Of a DNA stretch of 54,195 bases, positions 9,125 through 54,133 are shown one piece after another. Each line of letters starts with the position of its first letter. The stretch's first letter is position 1. The stretch lies in contig QWHH01000017.1 of the NCBI GenBank assembly GCA_021404785.1, forward strand, positions 1 to 54,195, read 5' to 3'. The notes under the pieces were generated by a model, which did no database searches, was not told the origin of the DNA, and was given only the letters and a program-made list of their open reading frames with translations. This DNA comes from Lysobacterales bacterium PRO7 (GTDB lineage: Bacteria > Pseudomonadota > Gammaproteobacteria > Xanthomonadales > Rhodanobacteraceae). The translations under genes and the position numbers were made by a program.

Positions 9125-9334
9125 ATGGCAGAACGTCAGATTGGTACCGTCAAGTGGTTTAACGATGCGAAGGGTTTTGGTTTCATCACGCCGGAAAGCG
9201 GTCCGGACCTGTTCGTGCATTTCCGTTCCATCCAGGGCGGCGGGTTCAAGACCCTCGCCGAAGGCCAGCGCGTCAGCTTCGTCGCCGTGCAGGGCCAGAA
9301 AGGCATGCAGGCCGATGAAGTGCAGTTGGCGTAA
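9125..9334 (+). CDS. Cold-shock protein (CspA family)
   Basis: 69 residues, a single cold-shock domain that binds single-stranded RNA or DNA as a chaperone. RNP1 (KGFGFI within [13 protein letters not shown]) and RNP2 (DLFVHF) are present. RNP2 is followed by [11 protein letters not shown] in place of the commoner SAIQ. ATG 9125 follows a strong AGGAG. It is monocistronic, bounded by the strong terminator at 9357-9390. Confidence 0.95.
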
Positions 9335-9671: not shown

Positions 9672-12600
9672 TCAGCCGCTCTGCGGTGTGCGGGCCGCCA
9701 CGATCAAGCCGGATACGTAACGCATGTCCGCCAGCTTCTGCGCTTCTGCCGAAGCGCCTCCGATCAGTTTTCCAGCCTCGTCGAGATCGGCCTTGCGCTG
9801 CTTCTGGCCAGCCGCATCCGCCGGCGCGGCGATCGCACTCACGTACAACGCGTAGGCGAAATCTCGGCGGAATTGCACGCCGTGCGCACCGGCTTGCTGT
9901 TGTTCGCGGTAATACGCCAGCGCCGGCTGCAGGATCTTGTTCGCCTCGTCGTCGCGGCCCTGCAGGGCGACCGCGTTGGCGAGCACGGCAGCGATGCTCG
10001 ACTTCAGCTGGCGCGGATCGCCGCTGTCGAACGGAGCCGGTGGCACCTGCGACCAGCGCAGTGCCAACGCCTCGGCCTGCGCGTAGTCGCCGAGCTGGAG
10101 CGCCGCGCGTGCAGCGGTCCCCAGATTGCCGCGCAGCATATTGGTTCGAACATTGACGCCGGTTATGTTGTCCGCAGGGACCTTGACCGGCTCGACCTGG
10201 GCAACCAAAGCAGTAGCCGATGCCAGCGCGACCTTGGGTTCGCCCTCCAGCAATTGCAGATTGGCACCCACGACACGCTGGTCCGCGTTGGCAAGCAGCG
10301 CGCGCCGGGGGTCGTTGGCGGCCAGCTGTGCGATATATTCGTTTGTGTCGTGGGCGAACGACTTCATCGACTGCGCGGCGCCCGCCGCATCGCCGGCCTC
10401 GGCCTGCATGTTCGCGAGTCCGAGCCATTGATACCAGATCCGCGGCCCGAGGCTGGAAGGCAGGCGCTTGTCCTGTTCCAGTGCGAACAGGGAATGCATC
10501 GTCGCAATGGCGTTGGCGATTTCGCCGCGATCGAATTGCTCGTCCGCGGTTCCACGCAGGGCTACCGTCCAATACCACCAAGCTTCCAGATTCGAGGGAT
10601 CGGATCGCACCCACTCCTCGCTCGCCTGCACGGCGCGCCGGGCGTAGTCCGCTGCGGTTGCATCGTCGTGGCGGCGCTCGGCCACCTCGCTCAGCAAACC
10701 CGCGGCAAGCACGCGGTTCAAGAGCGAATGCAAGTCGCTCGGGCGCCGTGCCAGCACTTTTTCGGCAAGCTCATACACCTCTTGTTCGAGTTGTTGCGCC
10801 GCGTCGACTTTGCCGAGCAGCAGCAGGACACGGGCCTCGGAATCGGCCGTATCGGCATACGAGGAGGCCGCGTTCAGATCCGACAGGTCCAATGCACCGA
10901 TGCCGGTCAACACCTTGCGTGCTTCCTCGCAGGTGGCGACTGACTGCGCGTTGGGCTGGGTGTGGCTGAGATAATTCAGGTCGTCGCCGTACAACTGGCG
11001 CACGCGCCGTGACGGATGGTCGCCGTACACCAAGGGCTTGAGCAGATCGGCCGCCTGCTGCAATTGCACCGCCGTGCCGCGGCCGCCGCGGATCACGGTC
11101 GAGCCCTGCTCGTACAGCGCCAGCGCCAGGCCATAAACGACGTCTTCGCCGTGATTGCCGGCGGCGTGCAATTTTTCGAACTCCGACTGGGCTTCGCCGA
11201 AGCTCTTGAAGGCTGCTTCCGCCTTGCCGGCGGCGCTCAATGACGCGCCTTCGCGCACCAGCGCCATCGCGCGGTTGATCCGTGTTTGCGGCGTGACCAG
11301 TTGCGGCGGCAAGCTGTCGTAGTAGGCGACGGCTTTCTGGGCGAGCTTGCCCAGCGTGTCCAGCCGCCCGGTCGGCGCCAGCTCGGTGTAAAAATCCTCG
11401 ATCAGGAAGCTGACCAGCTTCTCGGCGTTGCTGCGCGAGTTCTGCGCATCGAGTTCCGCGCTGCGGGCACGGCGCATGTTGATCCAGCCGAAGATCGCGC
11501 CGGCGACGGCGAGCAGCATCAGCACGATGCACACGCTGGCGATCGTGCGTGCGCGCACCAGGGCGCGATGCACCGCCGCTTCGCGTTCACGCTGCGCGGC
11601 GAGCTGGCGTTCGGCTTCCTCGCGCGCTTCGCGTTCGCGGCGCGAGTTGCGGCTGGCCAGCACGACGGCGCACAAAACGTCGTGGGTGAGTTCGACACGG
11701 CGCATGTCGAGGCGCTCTTCGATGCGCAGCAGGCGACGATTGACCAGGGTCGCCAGCGCATCCGGCGCAGCGCCGGCGGCGGCGAGCGCCTTGCCGACAC
11801 GTTCTTCGGCGAGACTTTCGCGATAGCCGGATTCGGTCAACAAATCGTCTTCGACCACGCGGCGCACGCCGGCGGGCTGGTCGGCCAGCGAACGTTCGTA
11901 GAATTCGGACAGGATCGTGTCGCGCGAGCCGGCCAGCAGGTCGGCGGAAATTTCCCGACGCTTCTGGCCCAGTCGAACCGTATTGAGTTCGCGGCAAACC
12001 AGGCTGAGCAGCGATGGTTCGATTTCCGCGTTCGCCAGCTCAGAGCCGCCGGCAACGAAACGCACGATGGCTTCGGCGACTTCCTGCGACACCAGCTTGC
12101 CACCCGGCTTGACCACTGCACTCAGCGCCTGAACGCCGTTCATGCGCGCCAGACGCATGCGGTTCTGGGTGATCGACGGCATGATCGTCTTGACACCCTC
12201 CAGATGCGCCAGATAGTCCTCGCGCAGCGCAATCAGGATGCGGTAATCGGCACGCGCGAAATCGAAATCGGCGGACGCGTTATCGTCGTTTTCGATGCGT
12301 TCTTCGAGCGCGACCGGCGGACGGTTTTCCACCAGATCGGCAAGATCCTCAAGAAACTGCTTGGCACGCAAGCGTCCTGTATCGTCAGCCTGACCGAGCG
12401 TGAAGATTTCTTCGAACTGGTCGAAGATCAGCAGCGGCATCAGCGTGTTGCCGTCGCGGTCGCGCAGCAGGTCCTCCCGGTGATGCAGGAATTCCCACAG
12501 CGACTCGCCCTCGATCGCGCTGCCCGGGCGTGTCCAATGTCCGGCTTCGGCCGTGGCGCGCAGGATCGCCTGCTTGATCTGTTCGGACGGCGGCGGCGAT

Positions 12601-12878
12601 TCGGGCGCGTAATCGACGCGCACGTACACCGGGCAAAAACCTTCGGTACGCAGCCGCGGCACCAGGCCAGCGCGCAGCAACGAGGTCTTGCCCAGGCCCG
12701 ACTGGCCGAACAGCACGGTCAGCAGTTTGCGTTGTACGCGCCGCGCAAGCTCCGCAGCTTCCTCGTCGCGGCCGTGGAAGTAGGCGCGGGTTTCCTCGGA
12801 ATACGAAAACAGGCCCAGCCACGGATTTTCCGGGTCGAGCGTGACCGTATCACCGGCGCGAGCGGTGTTGTCGTTCAT
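9672..12878 (-). CDS. nSTAND-type ATPase with membrane anchor and helical-repeat tail
   Basis: 1068 residues. PENPWLGLFSYSEETRAYFHGRDEE (about 16-40) is the typical entry to nSTAND1 domains. Walker A is GQSGLGKTS at 58-66, Walker B is LLIFDQFEE at 149-157, and a winged-helix-like region follows (about 250-400). A charged Arg/Glu coiled coil (about 405-440) leads to one predicted transmembrane helix (about 444-466, IASVCIVLMLLAVAGAIFGW). The last 600 residues are Ala/Leu-rich helical repeats of TPR type, opening with EKLVSFLIEDFYTELAPTGRLDTLGKL. No effector domain is visible in the chain. GGGAGAA precedes ATG 12878, which overlaps the stop of the SIR2/TIR gene in an ATGA. STAND proteins oligomerise on sensing a ligand; here the likely effector is the coupled TIR protein. 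Defence or stress signalling is inference. Confidence 0.88.
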   Translation of the reverse strand: MNDNTARAGDTVTLDPENPWLGLFSYSEETRAYFHGRDEEAAELARRVQRKLLTVLFGQSGLGKTSLLRAGLVPRLRTEGFCPVYVRVDYAPESPPPSEQIKQAILRATAEAGHWTRPGSAIEGESLWEFLHHREDLLRDRDGNTLMPLLIFDQFEEIFTLGQADDTGRLRAKQFLEDLADLVENRPPVALEERIENDDNASADFDFARADYRILIALREDYLAHLEGVKTIMPSITQNRMRLARMNGVQALSAVVKPGGKLVSQEVAEAIVRFVAGGSELANAEIEPSLLSLVCRELNTVRLGQKRREISADLLAGSRDTILSEFYERSLADQPAGVRRVVEDDLLTESGYRESLAEERVGKALAAAGAAPDALATLVNRRLLRIEERLDMRRVELTHDVLCAVVLASRNSRREREAREEAERQLAAQREREAAVHRALVRARTIASVCIVLMLLAVAGAIFGWINMRRARSAELDAQNSRSNAEKLVSFLIEDFYTELAPTGRLDTLGKLAQKAVAYYDSLPPQLVTPQTRINRAMALVREGASLSAAGKAEAAFKSFGEAQSEFEKLHAAGNHGEDVVYGLALALYEQGSTVIRGGRGTAVQLQQAADLLKPLVYGDHPSRRVRQLYGDDLNYLSHTQPNAQSVATCEEARKVLTGIGALDLSDLNAASSYADTADSEARVLLLLGKVDAAQQLEQEVYELAEKVLARRPSDLHSLLNRVLAAGLLSEVAERRHDDATAADYARRAVQASEEWVRSDPSNLEAWWYWTVALRGTADEQFDRGEIANAIATMHSLFALEQDKRLPSSLGPRIWYQWLGLANMQAEAGDAAGAAQSMKSFAHDTNEYIAQLAANDPRRALLANADQRVVGANLQLLEGEPKVALASATALVAQVEPVKVPADNITGVNVRTNMLRGNLGTAARAALQLGDYAQAEALALRWSQVPPAPFDSGDPRQLKSSIAAVLANAVALQGRDDEANKILQPALAYYREQQQAGAHGVQFRRDFAYALYVSAIAAPADAAGQKQRKADLDEAGKLIGGASAEAQKLADMRYVSGLIVAARTPQSG

Positions 12879-14263
12879 GCGCTTCTCCCGCTGAACAACT
12901 CGCGCAATCGGCGCAGGAACTCCGGCGTTGCCTCGCCTTGCGCAAGGCGCGTCATGTGCACGGCCTTGAATTGCTCCGGCACCAGGGCGGTGGCTTCGGG
13001 CGTGTCGTCGATGCACACCGGAAGCATGAACACCGCGCCTTCGGCGATGCTGCGGCTGCGATCCACGGCGTAGCTCCACTCGCGACGGAAGTAGGCCTCG
13101 TGGCGGCGCTGCGTGGTCGCGGAAATCACCGGGACGAAGAAACTGCAGCGTGCGATGTTCGCGCGGATCTTGCGGTCGTAGTCGTCGCCGCCTTCGAGGC
13201 GATCCAGATCGAACCAGGTCGTCAGGCCCGCTGCGTCCATGCCCGCCTTCAGGTGCTGCACGGCGGGCAGGTCTTCGCGCGCGTAGCTGATGAAGATCGC
13301 GTTTTCCGGCATCTCGCGCGCGGGCGGCAGAAAGCGTTGCGGCGCGCTGCCACCGTTCGCTGCAGATGCCGGTCGTTGGCGCGCGCTCCAGCGCGCATGC
13401 AACTCGGCGACAAACGATTCCGCGCCGCCGTACACGCGCGTGCGCACGCTGACCTGCTGCAGGAACGCGACCAGGCGCTCGTCTTTCGAGGTGTGGTCGT
13501 CGGCGAACACTTCGGTGAAATCGCGCGGATCCGACAGGCGCTTGCGTTTGGCCATGCGCAGGAACAGCCGCGCCAGCCAGTTGGAAAAATCGCTGCCGAT
13601 CAGCAGCAGGTGGTTGTGCTCGAGTTCGTGAAAGAGCTTTTCGGGCGTCAGGTGCTCGGACTGCAACGCACAGATGAACTCGAGCATGTCTTCGTCGGAT
13701 AGCACATACGTCGGCGAAGCGGACAGCCGCCCGAGCAGGTGGTACACCATCGTGCGCCGCGAATCGGCACGTTCGACGGGCAAGTCGGCAACGCGGTTCG
13801 GCGCGTAGGCGACGACTTCGGTGGACGGCTGGCCGCCGAAGCGTTCGAGGTTGAGCGCGTTTTCCAGCAGCGGATCGAACGTGGTGGTGACGAACAAATC
13901 GAAATCGGTGATCTGCGCCAGTTGCCGCAGCGCCTGCGGCGGCTCGAACTGCACCTCGCGCATGATCGAACGCAGGCGCGTGTAGGCCTCCTCGCGCCGG
14001 CCGCGCTGGCCGAGGTAGCTGCACATCACGTCGTTGAGCGAAAGCGGTTGCGGCAGTGCGGAAGTATCCACCGCGAGTCGCGCCGCGAGTTTCTCGGCCA
14101 GCCAGACATACAGCGGTCGCAAGCCGGTGTCGGTCTGCACACGCAAAAGGTCGGGCCCGATGATCGGGATGACCCGGTGTTCCTCGATGTAATTGAGCAG
14201 GTCGTCCCAGGCGTCGTCGTCGAAGGCCTGCGGCAAGCTCGTTGCGGCCAAAGGAGTCGTCAT
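12875..14263 (-). CDS. SIR2-like domain fused to a TIR domain
   Basis: 462 residues. The N-terminal half looks like a SIR2_2 fold: VIPIIGPDLL (31-40), FDLFVTTTFDPLLENAL (near 119-135), VYHLLGRL (near 171-179), LSDEDMLEFI and LLLIGSDFSNWLARLFLR. The C-terminal third (about 318-455) is a TIR_2 domain: IFISYAREDLPAVQHLKAG, LTTWFDLDRLEGGDDY, then FRREWSYAV with a candidate catalytic Glu. SIR2 positions normally occupied by Asn (TTNYD) and His (LHG) read TTTFD and LLG. The SIR2 part may therefore be a non-catalytic sensor, and TIR the NAD-consuming effector. I chose ATG 14263, with AGGGGAAA upstream, over 14305. Its TGA overlaps the ATPase start. No signal peptide. Role in immunity is inferred from domain logic. 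Confidence 0.85.
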   Translation of the reverse strand: MTTPLAATSLPQAFDDDAWDDLLNYIEEHRVIPIIGPDLLRVQTDTGLRPLYVWLAEKLAARLAVDTSALPQPLSLNDVMCSYLGQRGRREEAYTRLRSIMREVQFEPPQALRQLAQITDFDLFVTTTFDPLLENALNLERFGGQPSTEVVAYAPNRVADLPVERADSRRTMVYHLLGRLSASPTYVLSDEDMLEFICALQSEHLTPEKLFHELEHNHLLLIGSDFSNWLARLFLRMAKRKRLSDPRDFTEVFADDHTSKDERLVAFLQQVSVRTRVYGGAESFVAELHARWSARQRPASAANGGSAPQRFLPPAREMPENAIFISYAREDLPAVQHLKAGMDAAGLTTWFDLDRLEGGDDYDRKIRANIARCSFFVPVISATTQRRHEAYFRREWSYAVDRSRSIAEGAVFMLPVCIDDTPEATALVPEQFKAVHMTRLAQGEATPEFLRRLRELFSGRSA

Positions 14264-20730: not shown

Positions 20731-21933
20731 TTACACACCGGCGAATGACAGCTGAAGCTGAAATGCAATGGCCATCAATGCGAATAGCACGCTCGATACA
20801 ACCAGATATACGCGCTCAACCCGCTGATTCTTCAACGCGTAGCCTATTCCAATTGCCAACGGGAATAGACCCATTCCGTAACGCGACATCGAGGCGATCG
20901 ATCCTGTCAGAGCCGGAACAATCAAACCCAAAACCAGAAATAACCCAAGCCAACGTTGACCGCGTCGAAATGCCAGCCAGTACGACGTAGCCATTCCTAC
21001 AACGAACACAAGGAAGTTCAAATGACGGAGATTTCCGTCTGACGCCAATACCCAAGGTTTAGCCAAAACAACGCCCAACGCCTTGATCGGAAGCTCAAAG
21101 TGACGGCCCCAAACACTTTGCAGGTCGACAAAGGCAAGCGCGTCGCCAGAAGCTCGGTAAAGCATTCCCATGAAAACGACCAGACCGAGCGGCATCAGTC
21201 CCACGACAATCCATGCCCGGCGCGGCACTTCGTTGCGCTTTTCCCAAAGCCACAAGAGGAGCGCCATGACAAGAAACAGTCCTGCCAAACGGCATGCGCA
21301 GGCAGCAATGCCAAGCAACGCTCCCCACGACCATTGACGCGCAAGTATCGCGTAGGCGGTCGCCGCGGTCACCAACACGAACAGCGACTCGCTCCACGGC
21401 ATAGAGAAAAAATAGCTGGTCGGAAAAAACCCGAGCGCGAGCACCGCGCGATCTGCAACAACTGCCTCGTATCCGAGCGCGCTGCACAAGCGATGCAGCA
21501 TTACCAGGGCCAGCAGGAAATAAACGTTGGCGAGCACGATGCCGACCATTGGACTCGACCCGAACCAAGGCGTTAGCGCACGCCAGATCATCGGATGCAG
21601 TGGGAACGATGCCCAATTGGTGACGCGACTCGTATCGAACGATCGTACCTCATAGCCACCCTGCGCGATGCCGTAGTACAACCCGCCGTCATTGTAGACC
21701 GCCATCCGATCAAGGTCCTTCAGAACCGTTTCGGAGTGGAGTTCGATAAATGGCGCACCGATTCGATGGTTCGTCCCGGAATCAATCTCGAGGCCGGCAA
21801 CCGACGCCCAAATCAAAAATAAGAGTAATCGCGAGCACACAAAAACCGTAGACGCGATCATTGCTGCACGCTTCCAGTCAGTACTTGCAATTCGCAGTGA
21901 GGAATTACTCGGAATCATACGATCTTCAAGCAT
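20731..21933 (-). CDS. PIG-V/mannosyltransferase-like integral membrane glycosyltransferase
   Basis: 400 residues with about ten hydrophobic segments. A first-loop motif DGGLYYGIAQGGY (compare D..HYL.IA..GY) and FFPTSYFFSMPWSESLFVLV fit the PIG-V/GT-C family that transfers sugars from polyprenyl-phosphate donors across the membrane. Codon use is less GC-biased than the flanking cox genes, suggesting transfer. GTG 21936 and ATG 21918 are alternative starts. It precedes ctaB by 77 nt on the same strand and may now provide read-through to it. Donor and acceptor are unknown. Confidence 0.75.
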   Translation of the reverse strand: MLEDRMIPSNSSLRIASTDWKRAAMIASTVFVCSRLLLFLIWASVAGLEIDSGTNHRIGAPFIELHSETVLKDLDRMAVYNDGGLYYGIAQGGYEVRSFDTSRVTNWASFPLHPMIWRALTPWFGSSPMVGIVLANVYFLLALVMLHRLCSALGYEAVVADRAVLALGFFPTSYFFSMPWSESLFVLVTAATAYAILARQWSWGALLGIAACACRLAGLFLVMALLLWLWEKRNEVPRRAWIVVGLMPLGLVVFMGMLYRASGDALAFVDLQSVWGRHFELPIKALGVVLAKPWVLASDGNLRHLNFLVFVVGMATSYWLAFRRGQRWLGLFLVLGLIVPALTGSIASMSRYGMGLFPLAIGIGYALKNQRVERVYLVVSSVLFALMAIAFQLQLSFAGV

Positions 21934-22060
21934 CACTTCAGTCCGTTCGAACAGAGATTTTCATAACAGTGCGCACGCACGAATAATTGGTGGAAGTCTT
22001 TCACCAACATGTATCGCCGTTGCTCCACGGTAAGTCAATTCGTGACGCATTTCACAGTAC

Positions 22061-22072
22061 CCCCCCCCCCCA
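22061..22072. repeat. Homopolymeric C12 tract
   Basis: Twelve consecutive C in an otherwise AT-rich intergenic region, about 210 bp upstream of the hydrolase-like gene and 130 bp upstream of the glycosyltransferase. Tracts like this are prone to slippage. Confidence 0.95.
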
Positions 22073-22210
22073 AACTAGATTAGTCTAAAACATCCTTTTT
22101 GCTTTTTCTCAAACCTAGGATGAAAAAAACTCGAAATACTAATGCAATCCATTCTACTCGCGGGACGGACAATCGTGTTCTATCGGTTTTGGATTCGCCT
22201 GACGCAGTTT

Positions 22211-22255
22211 CAATTCGTGAATTGCTAGAACAAAGTATTCACAATCCACGATTGT
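22211..22255. promoter_or_regulatory. Paired palindromes upstream of the hydrolase-like gene
   Basis: CAATTCGTGAATTG (22211-22224) is a perfect 6-bp palindrome about a GT centre. ACAAT-ccacg-ATTGT (22241-22255) follows. Both sit 27-71 bp before the start codon, where a regulator could bind. No regulator gene is visible in the island. Confidence 0.35.
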
Positions 22256-22281
22256 ATTGACTTTACAACGGAGTACAAGTG

Positions 22282-23271
22282 ATGGCCAGAATCAAATTGT
22301 TATTCACATTAAGTATTTCTCTCTTCGTCATTTATGCGCATGCACAAGTAGCATCGGGGATATCAAGAGGAGGAAGTAATTTCAATTGGTACACTGTCGT
22401 CAATTGTGATCGCGAACCATATGGAGTGATTGTAAATTACAACACGCAAACTACTGGTATTCGGGCAGAACTCGGAAAGATCAGAAATGCTGGCCAAAAC
22501 AATCTGCGATTGATGTTATTTTTCGGTCACGGGCTCAGCTCCGGGACACTAATGGACTCGACCGGCGGTGCGCTTTCAGCACAAAATACGGCTAATCTCA
22601 ATGGCCTTCTAAGGGATATTTATAATTACGGTTTCAGTGAAGTCGAGATTTCTTTTTCGCCGCAAGGACCCAACGACCCTAATCAATGGGCCTCGTTGAA
22701 CACCACCATGGCTGCGGAAAATTGGAGTGTAATAAATTCTGTGCATCAGGGCATACAGAACCCAGGCTTGTATCGCATTTATTACGACCTGGGTAATGAA
22801 ATGATGACAAATAGTCAGAGCAATGCTCGCTACAGGTACATGAAATACATTTGGCCGAAATACTATTCCCTGTATTCGAATCTATATGATACTGTCGGAT
22901 TCAGCTTTGCGTCTGCCGAGATCAACGCTATCAGCAACATGGGCGCGATTTACGGTCACTACTCATACCCGGTGATGGCTGACGTTCACATTTACCCTTA
23001 TGGCGGCAACTCTGCGGCTGACATCCTTTATGCCGCTGCGCATAATCTTGCAACAATTGGTCCTGTGTCTGGAGGGTATCGTTTTGTAATCGGCGAAGCC
23101 AATTTCAATAATGCCACTGATGCTGCATCCATGGCACTGGAGCTCAATTCCTTGTCGTCTCACGACAGTAAACCATTTTATCTGATGCAATGGCCAATCG
23201 ACCCTGCCAGTCCAAACTGCCCGGTCGCGGATGTCTCGCCATTCAACAATTATATCGCTCACGGTTTCTAA
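22282..23271 (+). CDS. Secreted glycoside-hydrolase-like (TIM-barrel, clan A style) protein
   Basis: 329 residues with signal peptide cleaved near AHA-Q (about 21-22). The chain has the look of a (beta/alpha)8 glycosidase: LRLMLFFGHGLSSGTLMD, a conserved-looking acid/base candidate E173 in YYDLGNEMM, VMADVHIYPYGG, and a nucleophile candidate E272 in RFVIGEANFN, ending YLMQWPIDP. No specific GH family is assigned. Base composition is markedly AT-rich, with many AAT, ATT and TTA codons unlike the neighbours, so it is probably acquired. GGAG stands 8 nt before ATG 22282; GTG 22279 is possible. Confidence 0.7.
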   Translation: MARIKLLFTLSISLFVIYAHAQVASGISRGGSNFNWYTVVNCDREPYGVIVNYNTQTTGIRAELGKIRNAGQNNLRLMLFFGHGLSSGTLMDSTGGALSAQNTANLNGLLRDIYNYGFSEVEISFSPQGPNDPNQWASLNTTMAAENWSVINSVHQGIQNPGLYRIYYDLGNEMMTNSQSNARYRYMKYIWPKYYSLYSNLYDTVGFSFASAEINAISNMGAIYGHYSYPVMADVHIYPYGGNSAADILYAAAHNLATIGPVSGGYRFVIGEANFNNATDAASMALELNSLSSHDSKPFYLMQWPIDPASPNCPVADVSPFNNYIAHGF

Positions 23272-50675: not shown

Positions 50676-53600
50676 TCAGATCGCCCAGCGCCGGGTGGAA
50701 TCGCCGCCGAGTTCCGCCGCAACGTCCACGAAGCCGAGCCGGTGCGCCACTTCGCGCGGCGTGCGCTCAAGCAGGTCCCGCGCAGAACGATCCGCGCCTA
50801 CCTTGAGCAGCGCGCGCGCAGGCAAGAGCAGGCCGTGCATCGCGCAGGCGTGCAGCGGCCCGACGCCGCGTTCATCCTGCACGTCGATCCCTGCACCGTG
50901 TCCACGCAATACCTCGAGCAGGCCGAGCAGCGCCTTCTGGTCTGCGCCACTGCGTGGCGGTGCGTGTGCGCCGAGCAGGATCAGCAATGGGGTCTGTCCA
51001 TCGGCGTTGCGCGCATCGACGGTGGCGCCGGCATCCAGCAGCATTTCGAACAGACGTCGCGCCGCCTGCGCATCGCCTCCGGCGAATGCGAATTGTGCGG
51101 CGGCGTGCAGCGGGCGCATGCCGAGTGCGTCGGCGCCATCTGCCTGAGCAGCGTGCGCAAGCAGTACTTCGGTGGCTTCCACATCGCCGCGTCCTGCCGC
51201 CGCCATCAGCGCCGTGCGGTCGCCGGCCAGTGGCTGGTCGACGCTGGCGCCACGCGCGATCAGCAATTCCATGATGTCCTTGTGGCCCGCAGCCAGCGCC
51301 GAGCTCAACGCCGTTGCGCCATCGCCTGCCGCGTGCGCAGGATTCGCGCCCCGATCGAGCAGTAACGCAACGACCTGTGCTTGCCCGCGTCCGGCCGCAT
51401 GCAGCAAGGCGCTGGCGCCGTAGCCGTCGATGGCATCCACAGGCAGTCCCAATTCCAGCAACTTGCCCACCGCATCCGCGTCGCCGATGGAAGCCGCAGC
51501 GATGGTGTCAGTGCCGCGCAAGCGCCGGCACGGCAACTTCCAGGCTGGCCAATTCAGCCAACGCTGTACGCCGGATTGTCCGCGCGCCAGAGCCGTTCCG
51601 AGCGGGGTTTCATTATTGCTCGCGCGCACTTCCGGGTCAGCGCCGGCGCGCAGCAGCATCTTGATAGCTGCTTCGCAGGCCGCTGCCGGTGCCACAAGCG
51701 CGGAGAACAAAGGCGTGCGGCCATGCCGGTCGCGTGCCTGCGGATCGGCGCCACCGTCGAGCAAGCGCTTGGCAAGGTCGAGCCAACCGTGGGCAATCGC
51801 GAGCATGAGTGGCGTCCTGCCGTCGGCTTCAGCGCGGAAGACCTCGGCTCCGCGATCGACGAGGATCAATGCAAGGGTTTGCGCGTCCGCACCGGCGGCG
51901 TCTGCTGCGCAGCCGGTGCACAGTTGCGCGATGGCATTCGTGCCCGCAGGCTGCACGCCGGCATCGACCAGATCGCGCGCGGCCCGGATTCCGGCTGGCA
52001 GACAGGCGATGGCATGCTGCAAGAGCGTGCTGCCTTCCAGGCTCGTGTTCGGGTCCAGGCCATGCTGGAGAAGCCAGCGCCGCGGCGCCGCATCCGCATG
52101 CACGATCAATTCGACAAACAGCTGTGCAAGCGTTGCTGCCGGCCACTCACGAACGCACACAGAAAATCCATCGACAATATGCCAATGCCCAAAGCGCAAC
52201 GCATCGAGTAAATGCGCGGGGGAGTCGTTCGCGTGTGTTTGCGCCGGCGCAATGCCGGGCTGGTTTGCCGGGCGCGGAAAATCCGGATCGATCAAGGCGA
52301 CGATATTCCAGCGTCCGGCAGCGGCCGCGCACTCCACGGCGCGTCTTCCATCCTTTCCGACAAGTTGGCGTGAGATGCCCAGGGCAAGCAGTCTCTTTAC
52401 GGTTTCTTCGCCAGCGCGCAACGACTGCGCGGCGATCGTGAGCGCACTGCGCCCGGCCACATCGACGGCGTCCGGCGGCGGCCGTTGCGCGATCAATACA
52501 TCGAGCACGGCGTGTGCATCGGCACGAGCGGCTTCCATCAATGCGGTGGTTCCTTGCGCATCGGCGAGGTCTACACGCGCACCCGCCTCGATCAGCGCAC
52601 TGGCAATCGCGGTGTGCCCGTGCAATGCCGCCGCCATCAGTGCGGTACGCTGCATGACATCGCGGACATCCACGCGCGCCTTGCGCTTGAGCAGCATGCG
52701 TACGCCTTGCTCGTCATCTTCCTCGACGGATGCCGCCGCGATCAACGCGGGCTGTCCCGGCCCGTTTTCGATCTTGGCGCCACGATCGAGCAGGAATCGA
52801 ACGAGCTCCCAGTTTGCGGCTTCGCAAGCACGCGCCAATGGCGACTGACCTTCGCGGTTGATGGCGTCGATACGCGCGCCAGCATCACACAACAATGCGG
52901 CGACGACAGGAGTTGTGCTCATTGCCGCGTGATGCAGGGGCGTGTTGCCTTCTGCATCCGCACAATTCGGGGTAGCGCCATTGGTGAGCAGCGTCATCAC
53001 GGCATCCGGTCGGCCATCGCGGCTGTCGCGTGTTGCCGCGATCAGCAGCGGCAACCCCGCATGTATTTGATGCAGATTCGCACCCTTCGCAATGAAGCCG
53101 CGCAAAAGACGATTGTCCGGGCTGAGTACGGCCAGCACCAAGGCACTGCGCTGGTCGCGTTCGCCCGCCGGCGGAACGCCATCGGGATTGGCGCCGTGTT
53201 CGAGTGCAGACAACGCAAGCTGAGTCTGGCCAGCACGCACGCAGCGCAACAGCATGGCGTCGAGATCTTCGACGCCGAGGCTGACGGGCGCGATGTCCGG
53301 CGTGCGCTCGTATATTTCATCCGCAGCCATCGTTGCCGCCGTTGGCTGCGCAGATTCACCACGTGCGCGTTGGCGGTCGTCGAGAACCGCTACCGCGCTG
53401 CGCTGGAGAACCACCCAGATCAGCGGCAAAGCCGCCACCGCATATGCACCAAGCGTAATTGGTCGAGTGTCCGGCGAAATCGGCATACCAAATCCTGCCA
53501 ATGCAAGCGCGCCCTGAGCCAGTGCCAGCAGGGCGATCGCAGCCAGCAGTCCATGGCCAAAGAACAATTCGTTGTCAGCGGTCAGTTTCCATGCCTCGGC

Positions 53601-54050
53601 CAGAACCCCATCCGACTGCATCACGCCAACAGCGCGCGCGCGCCGGTGTCGAGCGCCCATGGCGGCCAAGCCATAGGCTGGCCAGATGCGCCACAGCAGC
53701 AGCAAGGCAAGTACCGTAGCCGCCGAGACGACCAGCACTTGCCCCAGTGAAATGGCTCCACGCAATTCATGCAGCGGGTATCCCAGCAAGATTGCACTGA
53801 GCAAGGTATAGCCGCAAAGCAACCCGAAGAACACGAATGCGCCGCGCCACGTATCACGCCAACTCTCGTTCCGGCGCAATTGCGCGAAGCTGCTGATAAC
53901 CACCGAACCGGCAGCATCGGCAACCAACAGTGCGAGAAGCGACAGGACGCCGGTAGTGAAAGCGGCAGTCAGATATCCGGCAAGTACGATGACAAGGCTG
54001 GCGATGATCGATCTTGCATTGTCCGCCCAAGGCAATCGTCTTTTCGGCAT
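50676..54050 (-). CDS. Large membrane-anchored ankyrin-repeat protein
   Basis: 1124 residues. About five or six transmembrane helices lie in residues 10-245 (IIASLVIVLAGYLTAAFTTGVLSLLALLVADAAG and others). From about 280 to the end there are some 20 ankyrin repeats, for example NTPLHHAAMSTTPVVAALLCDAGARIDAIN and RTALMAAAGRGDVEATEVLLAHAAQADG. The repeat array faces one side of the inner membrane and should bind proteins; partners are unknown. ATG 54050 is chosen; the frame to 54104 runs into the rRNA terminator. It converges with the antiporter gene, 11 bp between stops. Confidence 0.9.
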   Translation of the reverse strand: MPKRRLPWADNARSIIASLVIVLAGYLTAAFTTGVLSLLALLVADAAGSVVISSFAQLRRNESWRDTWRGAFVFFGLLCGYTLLSAILLGYPLHELRGAISLGQVLVVSAATVLALLLLWRIWPAYGLAAMGARHRRARAVGVMQSDGVLAEAWKLTADNELFFGHGLLAAIALLALAQGALALAGFGMPISPDTRPITLGAYAVAALPLIWVVLQRSAVAVLDDRQRARGESAQPTAATMAADEIYERTPDIAPVSLGVEDLDAMLLRCVRAGQTQLALSALEHGANPDGVPPAGERDQRSALVLAVLSPDNRLLRGFIAKGANLHQIHAGLPLLIAATRDSRDGRPDAVMTLLTNGATPNCADAEGNTPLHHAAMSTTPVVAALLCDAGARIDAINREGQSPLARACEAANWELVRFLLDRGAKIENGPGQPALIAAASVEEDDEQGVRMLLKRKARVDVRDVMQRTALMAAALHGHTAIASALIEAGARVDLADAQGTTALMEAARADAHAVLDVLIAQRPPPDAVDVAGRSALTIAAQSLRAGEETVKRLLALGISRQLVGKDGRRAVECAAAAGRWNIVALIDPDFPRPANQPGIAPAQTHANDSPAHLLDALRFGHWHIVDGFSVCVREWPAATLAQLFVELIVHADAAPRRWLLQHGLDPNTSLEGSTLLQHAIACLPAGIRAARDLVDAGVQPAGTNAIAQLCTGCAADAAGADAQTLALILVDRGAEVFRAEADGRTPLMLAIAHGWLDLAKRLLDGGADPQARDRHGRTPLFSALVAPAAACEAAIKMLLRAGADPEVRASNNETPLGTALARGQSGVQRWLNWPAWKLPCRRLRGTDTIAAASIGDADAVGKLLELGLPVDAIDGYGASALLHAAGRGQAQVVALLLDRGANPAHAAGDGATALSSALAAGHKDIMELLIARGASVDQPLAGDRTALMAAAGRGDVEATEVLLAHAAQADGADALGMRPLHAAAQFAFAGGDAQAARRLFEMLLDAGATVDARNADGQTPLLILLGAHAPPRSGADQKALLGLLEVLRGHGAGIDVQDERGVGPLHACAMHGLLLPARALLKVGADRSARDLLERTPREVAHRLGFVDVAAELGGDSTRRWAI

Positions 54051-54102
54051 CTTGCTTGCGAATCGGGAACTGGCAGGCGCGAGTATATCGGCACGCGCAA
54101 AC

Positions 54103-54133
54103 AAAAACCCCCTGATCTTGCGACCAGGGGGTT
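54103..54133 (-). terminator. rRNA operon terminator
   Basis: AACCCCCTG (minus strand 54133-54125) pairs with CAGGGGGTT (54114-54106), a perfect 9-bp stem with a 10-nt loop, then TTTTT (54107-54103). It lies about 10 nt after the 5S end. Confidence 0.92.

Follow-up and report, generated by a model that had tools for sequence, protein, structure and literature searches.

We analysed a 54,195-nucleotide stretch of contig QWHH01000017.1 from Lysobacterales bacterium PRO7 (the window) and identified a pair of overlapping genes on its reverse strand. The first encodes a protein of 462 residues that joins a SIR2-like domain to a TIR domain (the effector), and the second encodes an nSTAND1 ATPase of 1068 residues with a predicted membrane helix and a long helical tail. 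The positions of these genes and of their main features are collected in Table 1.

Table 1. Features of the gene pair in the window, followed by related genes at other loci
Feature	Position	Strand	Basis or remark
SIR2-like/TIR protein, first gene	12875..14263	-	ATG at 14263, stop at 12875; 462 residues
SIR2-like domain, residues 20–298	13370..14206	-	limits from model and alignment; predicted catalytically dead scaffold
Thr128 codon (position of ThsA Asn112)	13880..13882	-	alignment
Leu177 codon (position of ThsA His152)	13733..13735	-	alignment
TIR domain, residues 321–440	12944..13303	-	
Glu395 codon, putative catalytic glutamate of TIR	13079..13081	-	78/78 rows
ATGA start/stop overlap of both genes	12875..12878	-	
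nSTAND1 ATPase with membrane helix and solenoid tail, second gene	9672..12878	-	ATG at 12878, stop at 9672; 1068 residues
nSTAND1 NTPase module, residues 19–429	11592..12824	-	Pfam, alignment
Walker A Lys64; Asp153	12687-12689; 12420-12422	-	alignment
Single predicted membrane helix, residues 446–464	11487..11543	-	hydropathy; more positive charge on NTPase side
TPR-like alpha-solenoid tail, residues 505–1063	9690..11366	-	fast-evolving, putative extracytoplasmic sensor
Small intervening gene, 23S_rRNA_IVP type	L102 2317-2715		Pfam run on L102 only
Small intervening gene, same position as in L102	L087 6001-6399; L099 11103-11474; L101 11385-11756; L106 11431-11829		
TIR-TM-TPR gene (730 residues), 109-residue open reading frame and SLOG-membrane gene in a row	L149 9244-13448 (G000:C14)	-	

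The pair is flanked by housekeeping genes (dnaG, a cold-shock gene and FAD oxidoreductases). A scan for promoters and terminators gave signal only at chance level, and a tandem-repeat scan found none at the gene pair. A sequence-only reading of the window had described this arrangement: an ATGA overlap, SIR2-like and TIR domains in one protein, an nSTAND ATPase with a membrane helix and helical tail, an effector supplied as a separate protein, and housekeeping loci on either side. Our analysis bears out each of these features. That reading had also taken both effector domains to be NAD-consuming, which holds, as a prediction, for the TIR domain and fails for the SIR2-like domain, as set out below.

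Active-site residues of the SIR2-like and TIR domains

Pfam recognised both domains above the curated cut-offs, as SIR2_2 (PF13289; residues 123–262, 6.4e-13) and TIR_2 (PF13676; residues 323–440, 1.4e-16), respectively. A scan of a public genome collection found 106 relatives, and 80 loci were kept. Our effector alignment has 78 rows, comprising 74 of these loci, the window and three far relatives; it omits L089, L100, L122, L133, L097 (broken) and L120 (partial).

The SIR2-like domain aligned to that of ThsA at an E-value of 0.005, with Thr128 in place of Asn112 and Leu177 in place of His152. Position 128 is threonine in all 78 rows, and position 177 is leucine in 63, phenylalanine in 14 and methionine in one; neither the catalytic asparagine nor the catalytic histidine of SIR2-type NADases is present in any row. 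Among the six omitted loci and the far relatives L176, L177, L178 and L179, threonine and leucine or phenylalanine occupy these positions in 10 of the 10 that cover the sites. The nearby His175, two residues from position 177, is glutamine in two of the 78 rows and is not conserved in the farthest ones. In ThsA, the N112A and H152A substitutions each abolish cleavage of nicotinamide adenine dinucleotide (NAD), with the caveat that H152A also disturbs oligomerisation (passages of PMC7272460). Because both of these catalytic residues are lost in all 78 rows, the SIR2-like domain is probably a scaffold without catalysis, and we ruled out SIR2 as an active effector on the identity of the replacing residues. 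In a structure search, the fold matched those of DSR2, ThsA, SPARSA, KomBC and Avs5, with filaments, tetramers or helical assemblies named in the entry titles. The two highest-ranked ThsA rows spanned both domains at a root-mean-square deviation near 16 and were left unused. The ratio of non-synonymous to synonymous substitution rates (dN/dS) for this domain was 0.03–0.11 in two pairs, corresponding to purifying selection.

The TIR domain shows the opposite pattern at its active site. Glu395 aligns with a glutamate of AbTIR, which we take to be the catalytic residue of that enzyme, and it is kept in 78 of 78 rows and in all nine loci outside the alignment that cover the site. This domain is also among the most constrained parts of the pair (dN/dS 0.02–0.09, two pairs). 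Of the two effector domains, only TIR looks enzymatic as judged by its residues.

The ATPase, its membrane helix and its tail

The nSTAND1 match (PF20703; residues 19–429, 6.1e-31) scored 108.8 bits against a cut-off of 27.1. Only 18 residues precede it, and no effector domain is fused at the N-terminus. The ATPase carries the Walker A motif GQSGLGKTS and the Walker B-like motif LLIFDQFEE, in which G58, G61, G63, K64, T65 and D153 are invariant across 57 aligned ATPases, including that of the window.

A hydrophobic helix follows the ATPase in 57 of 57 full-length homologues, 47 of them with one match and 10 with a second, overlapping or weaker match. It lies near the same place in five of six distant homologues, the exception being L058. 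Lysine and arginine are commoner on the ATPase side of the helix in 56 of 63 proteins (a set that excludes L058), equal in six and fewer in one, and cysteines are rarer in the tail (0.22 versus 0.72 per 100 residues). Based on the conserved helix, the charge bias and the scarcity of tail cysteines, the ATPase is probably located in the cytosol and the tail outside.

The tail forms a C-terminal repeat domain of sensor-like type, and its model is all-helical with a predicted local distance difference test score (pLDDT) mostly above 90. It has diverged much faster than the ATPase: identity to the window was 0.28–0.41 for the tail from residue 530 onwards versus 0.74–0.84 for the ATPase, and dN/dS in four pairs was 0.17–0.31 versus 0.04–0.12. 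In no region of the compared pairs did dN/dS exceed 1. In far relatives, the tail gives WD40 matches instead (G078, G029, G091, which is the weakest, and one of two copies in G468).

Linkage and distribution of the pair

The ATPase open reading frame (ORF) follows the effector gene in 76 of the 80 relatives, with an overlap of exactly four bases in 58 of these 76. Some of the 76 ATPase ORFs are cut by a contig end or look broken, and five have a small gene of 23S_rRNA_IVP type between the SIR2-TIR and ATPase genes; all five of these loci belong to Verrucomicrobiota. Three of the four loci lacking an ATPase end no more than 132 bases from a contig end. Because 76 of 80 relatives keep both genes and the compared sequence pairs are under purifying selection, we consider the ORF pair real, and a chance overlap of two ORFs is ruled out. 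The same linkage was seen in a set of 149 genomes, the window's own included: the effector had a match in 22, of which 12 cover the TIR part or less, and in all 10 full-length carriers an ATPase gene on the same strand adjoins that of the effector.

The pair was seen in Lysobacterales, Betaproteobacteria and Verrucomicrobiota, with a patchy distribution. Full-length carriers make up five of 17 genomes of the window's genus. At an E-value of 1e-20, and with partial matches included, a match was found in 16 of 234 genomes of the family and in four of 369 genomes sampled from the class. The pair lies beside dnaG in the window, G012 and G014, as does the ATPase part in a G007 contig, whereas in G006 and G010 the contigs that carry it show a different neighbourhood. 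The pair is absent from nine further dnaG regions of the genus (L160-L168); these represent eight assemblies and a second dnaG contig of G007 that may be contamination, and the comparison omits the fragmentary dnaG contigs of G004, G005, G009 and G016. These nine regions rule out a housekeeping pair at a fixed locus. As judged from these comparisons, the pair is a patchy insertion with differing insertion sites. Relative to the pair, the cold-shock gene lies towards dnaG in the window (9128-9334) and on the far side in G012 and G014 (L049 177-386, L051 3176-3385), so this site may have seen repeated movement of either the pair or the cold-shock gene.

In an unrooted tree of the 78 rows, Verrucomicrobiota and Pseudomonadota interleave, and well-supported branches force at least two changes for Verrucomicrobiota. 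Effector identity between the window and the Verrucomicrobiota rows is 71–77%, whereas dnaG identity, which was compared within the window's genus only, falls to 74%. These results point to transfer.

Partner genes beside the pair

Clustering of neighbouring genes identified a two-helix membrane protein adjoining the pair in 18 of the 80 loci. In 15 of the 18 it has a SLOG-type N-terminal part, and 13 of these 15 SLOG-membrane genes are no more than 600 bases away from the pair, on one strand or the other. By chance, an adjacent SLOG gene would be expected at well under one locus of 80, a rough figure that uses the 18 of 61 relatives with such a gene and may differ in other taxa. SLATT/DUF4231 matches passed the Pfam cut-off in L064; in several others they fell short. 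G007 also has a SLOG-membrane gene beside the ATPase gene, and G010 (whose locus is L064) and G468 have one beside the pair. Such a protein may read an NAD-derived signal. The remaining three loci, L108, L130 and L136, have short forms without SLOG; they share a separate ORF of ~159 residues (L130 14550-15029, L136 14546-15025).

In a second neighbour cluster, present at seven other loci, the single member examined by Pfam (L106) matched MAP3K_TRAF_bd and TPR-S and also contains a stretch aligning to the SLOG part. Extra TIR genes are present in 15 of the 80 loci (11 Verrucomicrobiota, three Betaproteobacteria and one Gammaproteobacteria). At least one of the three partner types occurs in 33 of the 80 loci, and in 23 of the 36 with at least 3 kb on both sides.

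In the window's genome, a SLOG-membrane gene is located on another contig, beside a small ORF and a gene for a TIR-transmembrane-TPR (TIR-TM-TPR) protein (Table 1). Homology between the first part of the window's tail and the central part of TIR-TM-TPR proteins suggests that both designs draw on common sensors. TIR-TM-TPR and SLOG genes also stand side by side in G002, G007, G012, G016, G028, G034 and G039, with the small ORF in all but G002 and another orientation in G034. Tandem arrays of TIR-TPR-like paralogues near a SLOG gene were also observed (L156 7841-11436, L157 3506-16299), two genes in G039 and seven in G056, with Pfam run on one member.

Proposed mechanism and alternatives

We propose that the pair is a mobile two-gene alarm module, in which a membrane-anchored STAND switch works with an NAD-cleaving TIR partner, and we give this an even chance of being correct. 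The sequences themselves show that the two genes are linked, which domains they encode, that SIR2 has lost its catalytic residues and TIR has kept its glutamate, that a hydrophobic helix is conserved and a membrane partner recurs, that selection is purifying, and that the pair is inserted patchily with phyla interleaved in the tree; from there we infer topology, assembly, enzymatic product, trigger and biological purpose. The nSTAND1 protein would be anchored by one helix across the inner membrane with its ATPase in the cytosol, and the TPR-like tail outside would sense a trigger such as envelope damage or a phage or competitor component. ATP-driven assembly of the ATPase would gather the SIR2-TIR protein, and the dead SIR2 domain would act as docking site and oligomer scaffold that brings the TIR domains into the paired state needed for catalysis. 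Cleavage of NAD by TIR would result in depletion, an ADP-ribose-type signal or both. A SLOG/two-helix membrane protein, whose gene adjoins the pair in some genomes and lies on another contig in that of the window, would read the signal and open the membrane, and the affected cell would arrest or die. All of these steps are suggested by the anatomy of the proteins. Phage defence is a plausible purpose, and programmed death on envelope attack would fit equally.

More tentatively, and with less than even confidence, we suggest that the module is a transmembrane STAND receptor, with an exchangeable outside sensor (TPR or WD40), a cytosolic STAND switch, a pseudo-sirtuin adaptor, a TIR signal and a SLOG membrane effector. 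If so, the module would act as an immune receptor, sensing at the envelope and passing the signal inward via an NAD-derived messenger, and a dead enzyme would have been reused as an assembly scaffold. Most bacterial STAND immune switches studied so far are soluble and detect phage proteins within the cell. If the tail is outside, bacteria would also watch the envelope with STAND machinery, as animals and plants do via surface receptors. Likewise, a sirtuin fold kept under strong selection without catalytic residues would show a route from enzyme to assembly scaffold.

Several results weigh against the alarm module. Its topology rests on hydropathy and charge bias, with L058 lacking a helix at that place, and the ATPase part of the model is poor (residues 22–69, including the P-loop, are at pLDDT <50). 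L122 (1955-3310) is an orphan SIR2-TIR gene; the 1933 bases downstream gave no ATPase match, and by our reading of the sequence a Crp/Fnr-like ORF comes next. Just 18 of 80 pairs have the membrane partner next to them, that of the window not being among these, and co-occurrence of SLOG gene and pair within the genus is not significant (5/6 versus 4/11, p 0.13). The ATPase matched no PADLOC family at an E-value of 0.1 or better, the effector's PADLOC matches are in the TIR region or weak (ThsB profile, E 0.033), and neighbours in the main clade are largely housekeeping. No match was found in 50,697 phage records at an E-value of 1e-10, none was confirmed in viral contigs, and the one match in 72,556 plasmid records is 30% identical and lies on a 2.56 Mb Paraburkholderia replicon; we rejected phage or plasmid cargo on these counts. 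Finally, as far as the PADLOC comparison goes, known defence genes near the pair are without clear enrichment. This test compared 125 of 192 eligible near genes with 125 of 195 far genes, dropping genes shorter than 90 residues, genes 2.5–4.5 kb away, the pair itself and the TIR/SLOG/TRAF-type clusters. Near genes matched 43 PADLOC families and far genes 14, but of the 25 near families listed only three had more than one member, and housekeeping-related models (DnaG-like, Cas3-like, ABC-type) probably explain part of the near excess. One gene in the test matches DpdF models (3.3e-261); ten candidate genes checked for PADLOC matches gave none.

The sequence-only reading had suggested a defence system. 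Its linked unit stands (76 of 80 loci, patchy, at different sites), and the alternatives it raised, that relatives would not keep the genes together or that the pair would be universal at a fixed locus, are refuted. The defence part gains little from neighbours, few of which match defence models: nearness to known defence genes was seen in single relatives, with a type III-B CRISPR locus in G091, where Cas_NE0113, SLATT_5, a RAMP and Cmr2 adjoin the pair, and caspase and trypsin genes downstream of it in G029, and did not extend to a general enrichment. The links of the pair to defence are this one III-B CRISPR locus, this one caspase gene and the recurrent SLOG-membrane, TPR-S and TIR-TPR genes.

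We regard it as unlikely, yet worth serious attention, that the pair signals without defence, as a transmembrane stress or developmental sensor whose TIR-made messenger alters physiology with no killing or phage arrest. The housekeeping neighbours at many loci, the little PADLOC signal, the putative extracytoplasmic sensor, the strong purifying selection on the effector and the lack of matches in the phage records and viral contigs searched agree with such a role. However, the patchy insertion, interleaved phyla, fast sensor change and sensor swap fit conflict better, as do the type III-B CRISPR and caspase neighbours and the conflict-type partners (SLOG/SLATT, TPR-S and MAP3K_TRAF_bd).

Direct NAD depletion as in Avs5 or DSR2, with SIR2 and TIR both active and no need for the SLOG effector, appears improbable. 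Although Pfam recognises both domains, the SIR2 fold match is strong and 47 of the 80 loci have none of the three partner types (many of their flanks being short), none of the 78 rows retains either ThsA catalytic residue. A reading in which TIR is a non-enzymatic scaffold and the SIR2-TIR protein only an adaptor recruiting other TIR proteins, is harder still to credit: the invariant TIR glutamate and the strong constraint on the domain speak against it, and 65 of the 80 loci have no extra TIR gene in the available flank. In its favour, 15 loci carry further TIR genes in the flanks of the pair, as many as six at one locus; the recruited proteins would be, for example, those of the TIR-TPR arrays found around it in some Verrucomicrobiota and Betaproteobacteria.

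Comparison with known systems

The pair resembles Avs/AVAST type 5 in combining a SIR2 fold with a STAND ATPase, and EfAvs5 and AVAST5 filaments are among its structural matches. It differs in its separate effector protein, the lost SIR2 catalytic residues, the added TIR domain and the membrane helix after the ATPase. As in Thoeris, TIR, SIR2-like and SLOG parts share one neighbourhood in some relatives, and the SIR2 domain matches ThsA by both sequence and fold. However, TIR and SIR2 are fused here, whereas ThsB is a separate TIR protein. ThsA carries a catalytic SIR2 and SLOG in one chain, whereas the effector has no SLOG match and a dead-looking SIR2; here SLOG is on a separate membrane protein and the linked partner is a STAND ATPase.

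Burroughs, Aravind and colleagues reportedly described TIR/SLOG/SLATT nucleotide-signalling systems in 2015. In some relatives the TIR gene likewise adjoins a two-helix membrane protein that may be of SLATT type, but it has a STAND ATPase as its linked partner. The SLATT prediction appears in passages of PMC7159879 and PMC9503650.

Among the closest published arrangements are TIR and STAND genes paired through bDLD3 domains, and the same source names nSTAND1 as a STAND clade and describes conflict systems centred on it (eLife 2021, PMC8195603). An effector supplied in trans, as the sequence-only reading proposed, thus has a published precedent. Like the bDLD3 pairs, ours has a STAND ATPase with C-terminal sensor-type domains and a TIR domain from the neighbouring gene. 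Unlike in these pairs, Pfam gave no match to a Death-like or EAD adaptor, a dead SIR2 domain seems to provide the link, and the ATPase carries a membrane helix that is predicted to leave the sensor outside. The system is of a known kind, since TIR, SIR2 and STAND parts combine widely and TIR gene and STAND gene pairing is published; within the TIR/STAND conflict systems we regard this one, a SIR2-TIR fusion teamed with a membrane-helix nSTAND protein, as a new variant. Among the matches listed from open-licence literature, no title or abstract start describes a SIR2-TIR and nSTAND ATPase pair, which is weak evidence because only part of the matches was listed and only open-licence papers were covered.

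Other features of the window

Away from the pair, the stretch at 20731-23271 has lower GC content (0.44 at 22001-23000) and was possibly acquired; it contains a PIG-V mannosyltransferase match just under the cut-off and an ORF without a Pfam match. An ankyrin-repeat protein of 1142 residues is encoded on the reverse strand at 50676-54104.

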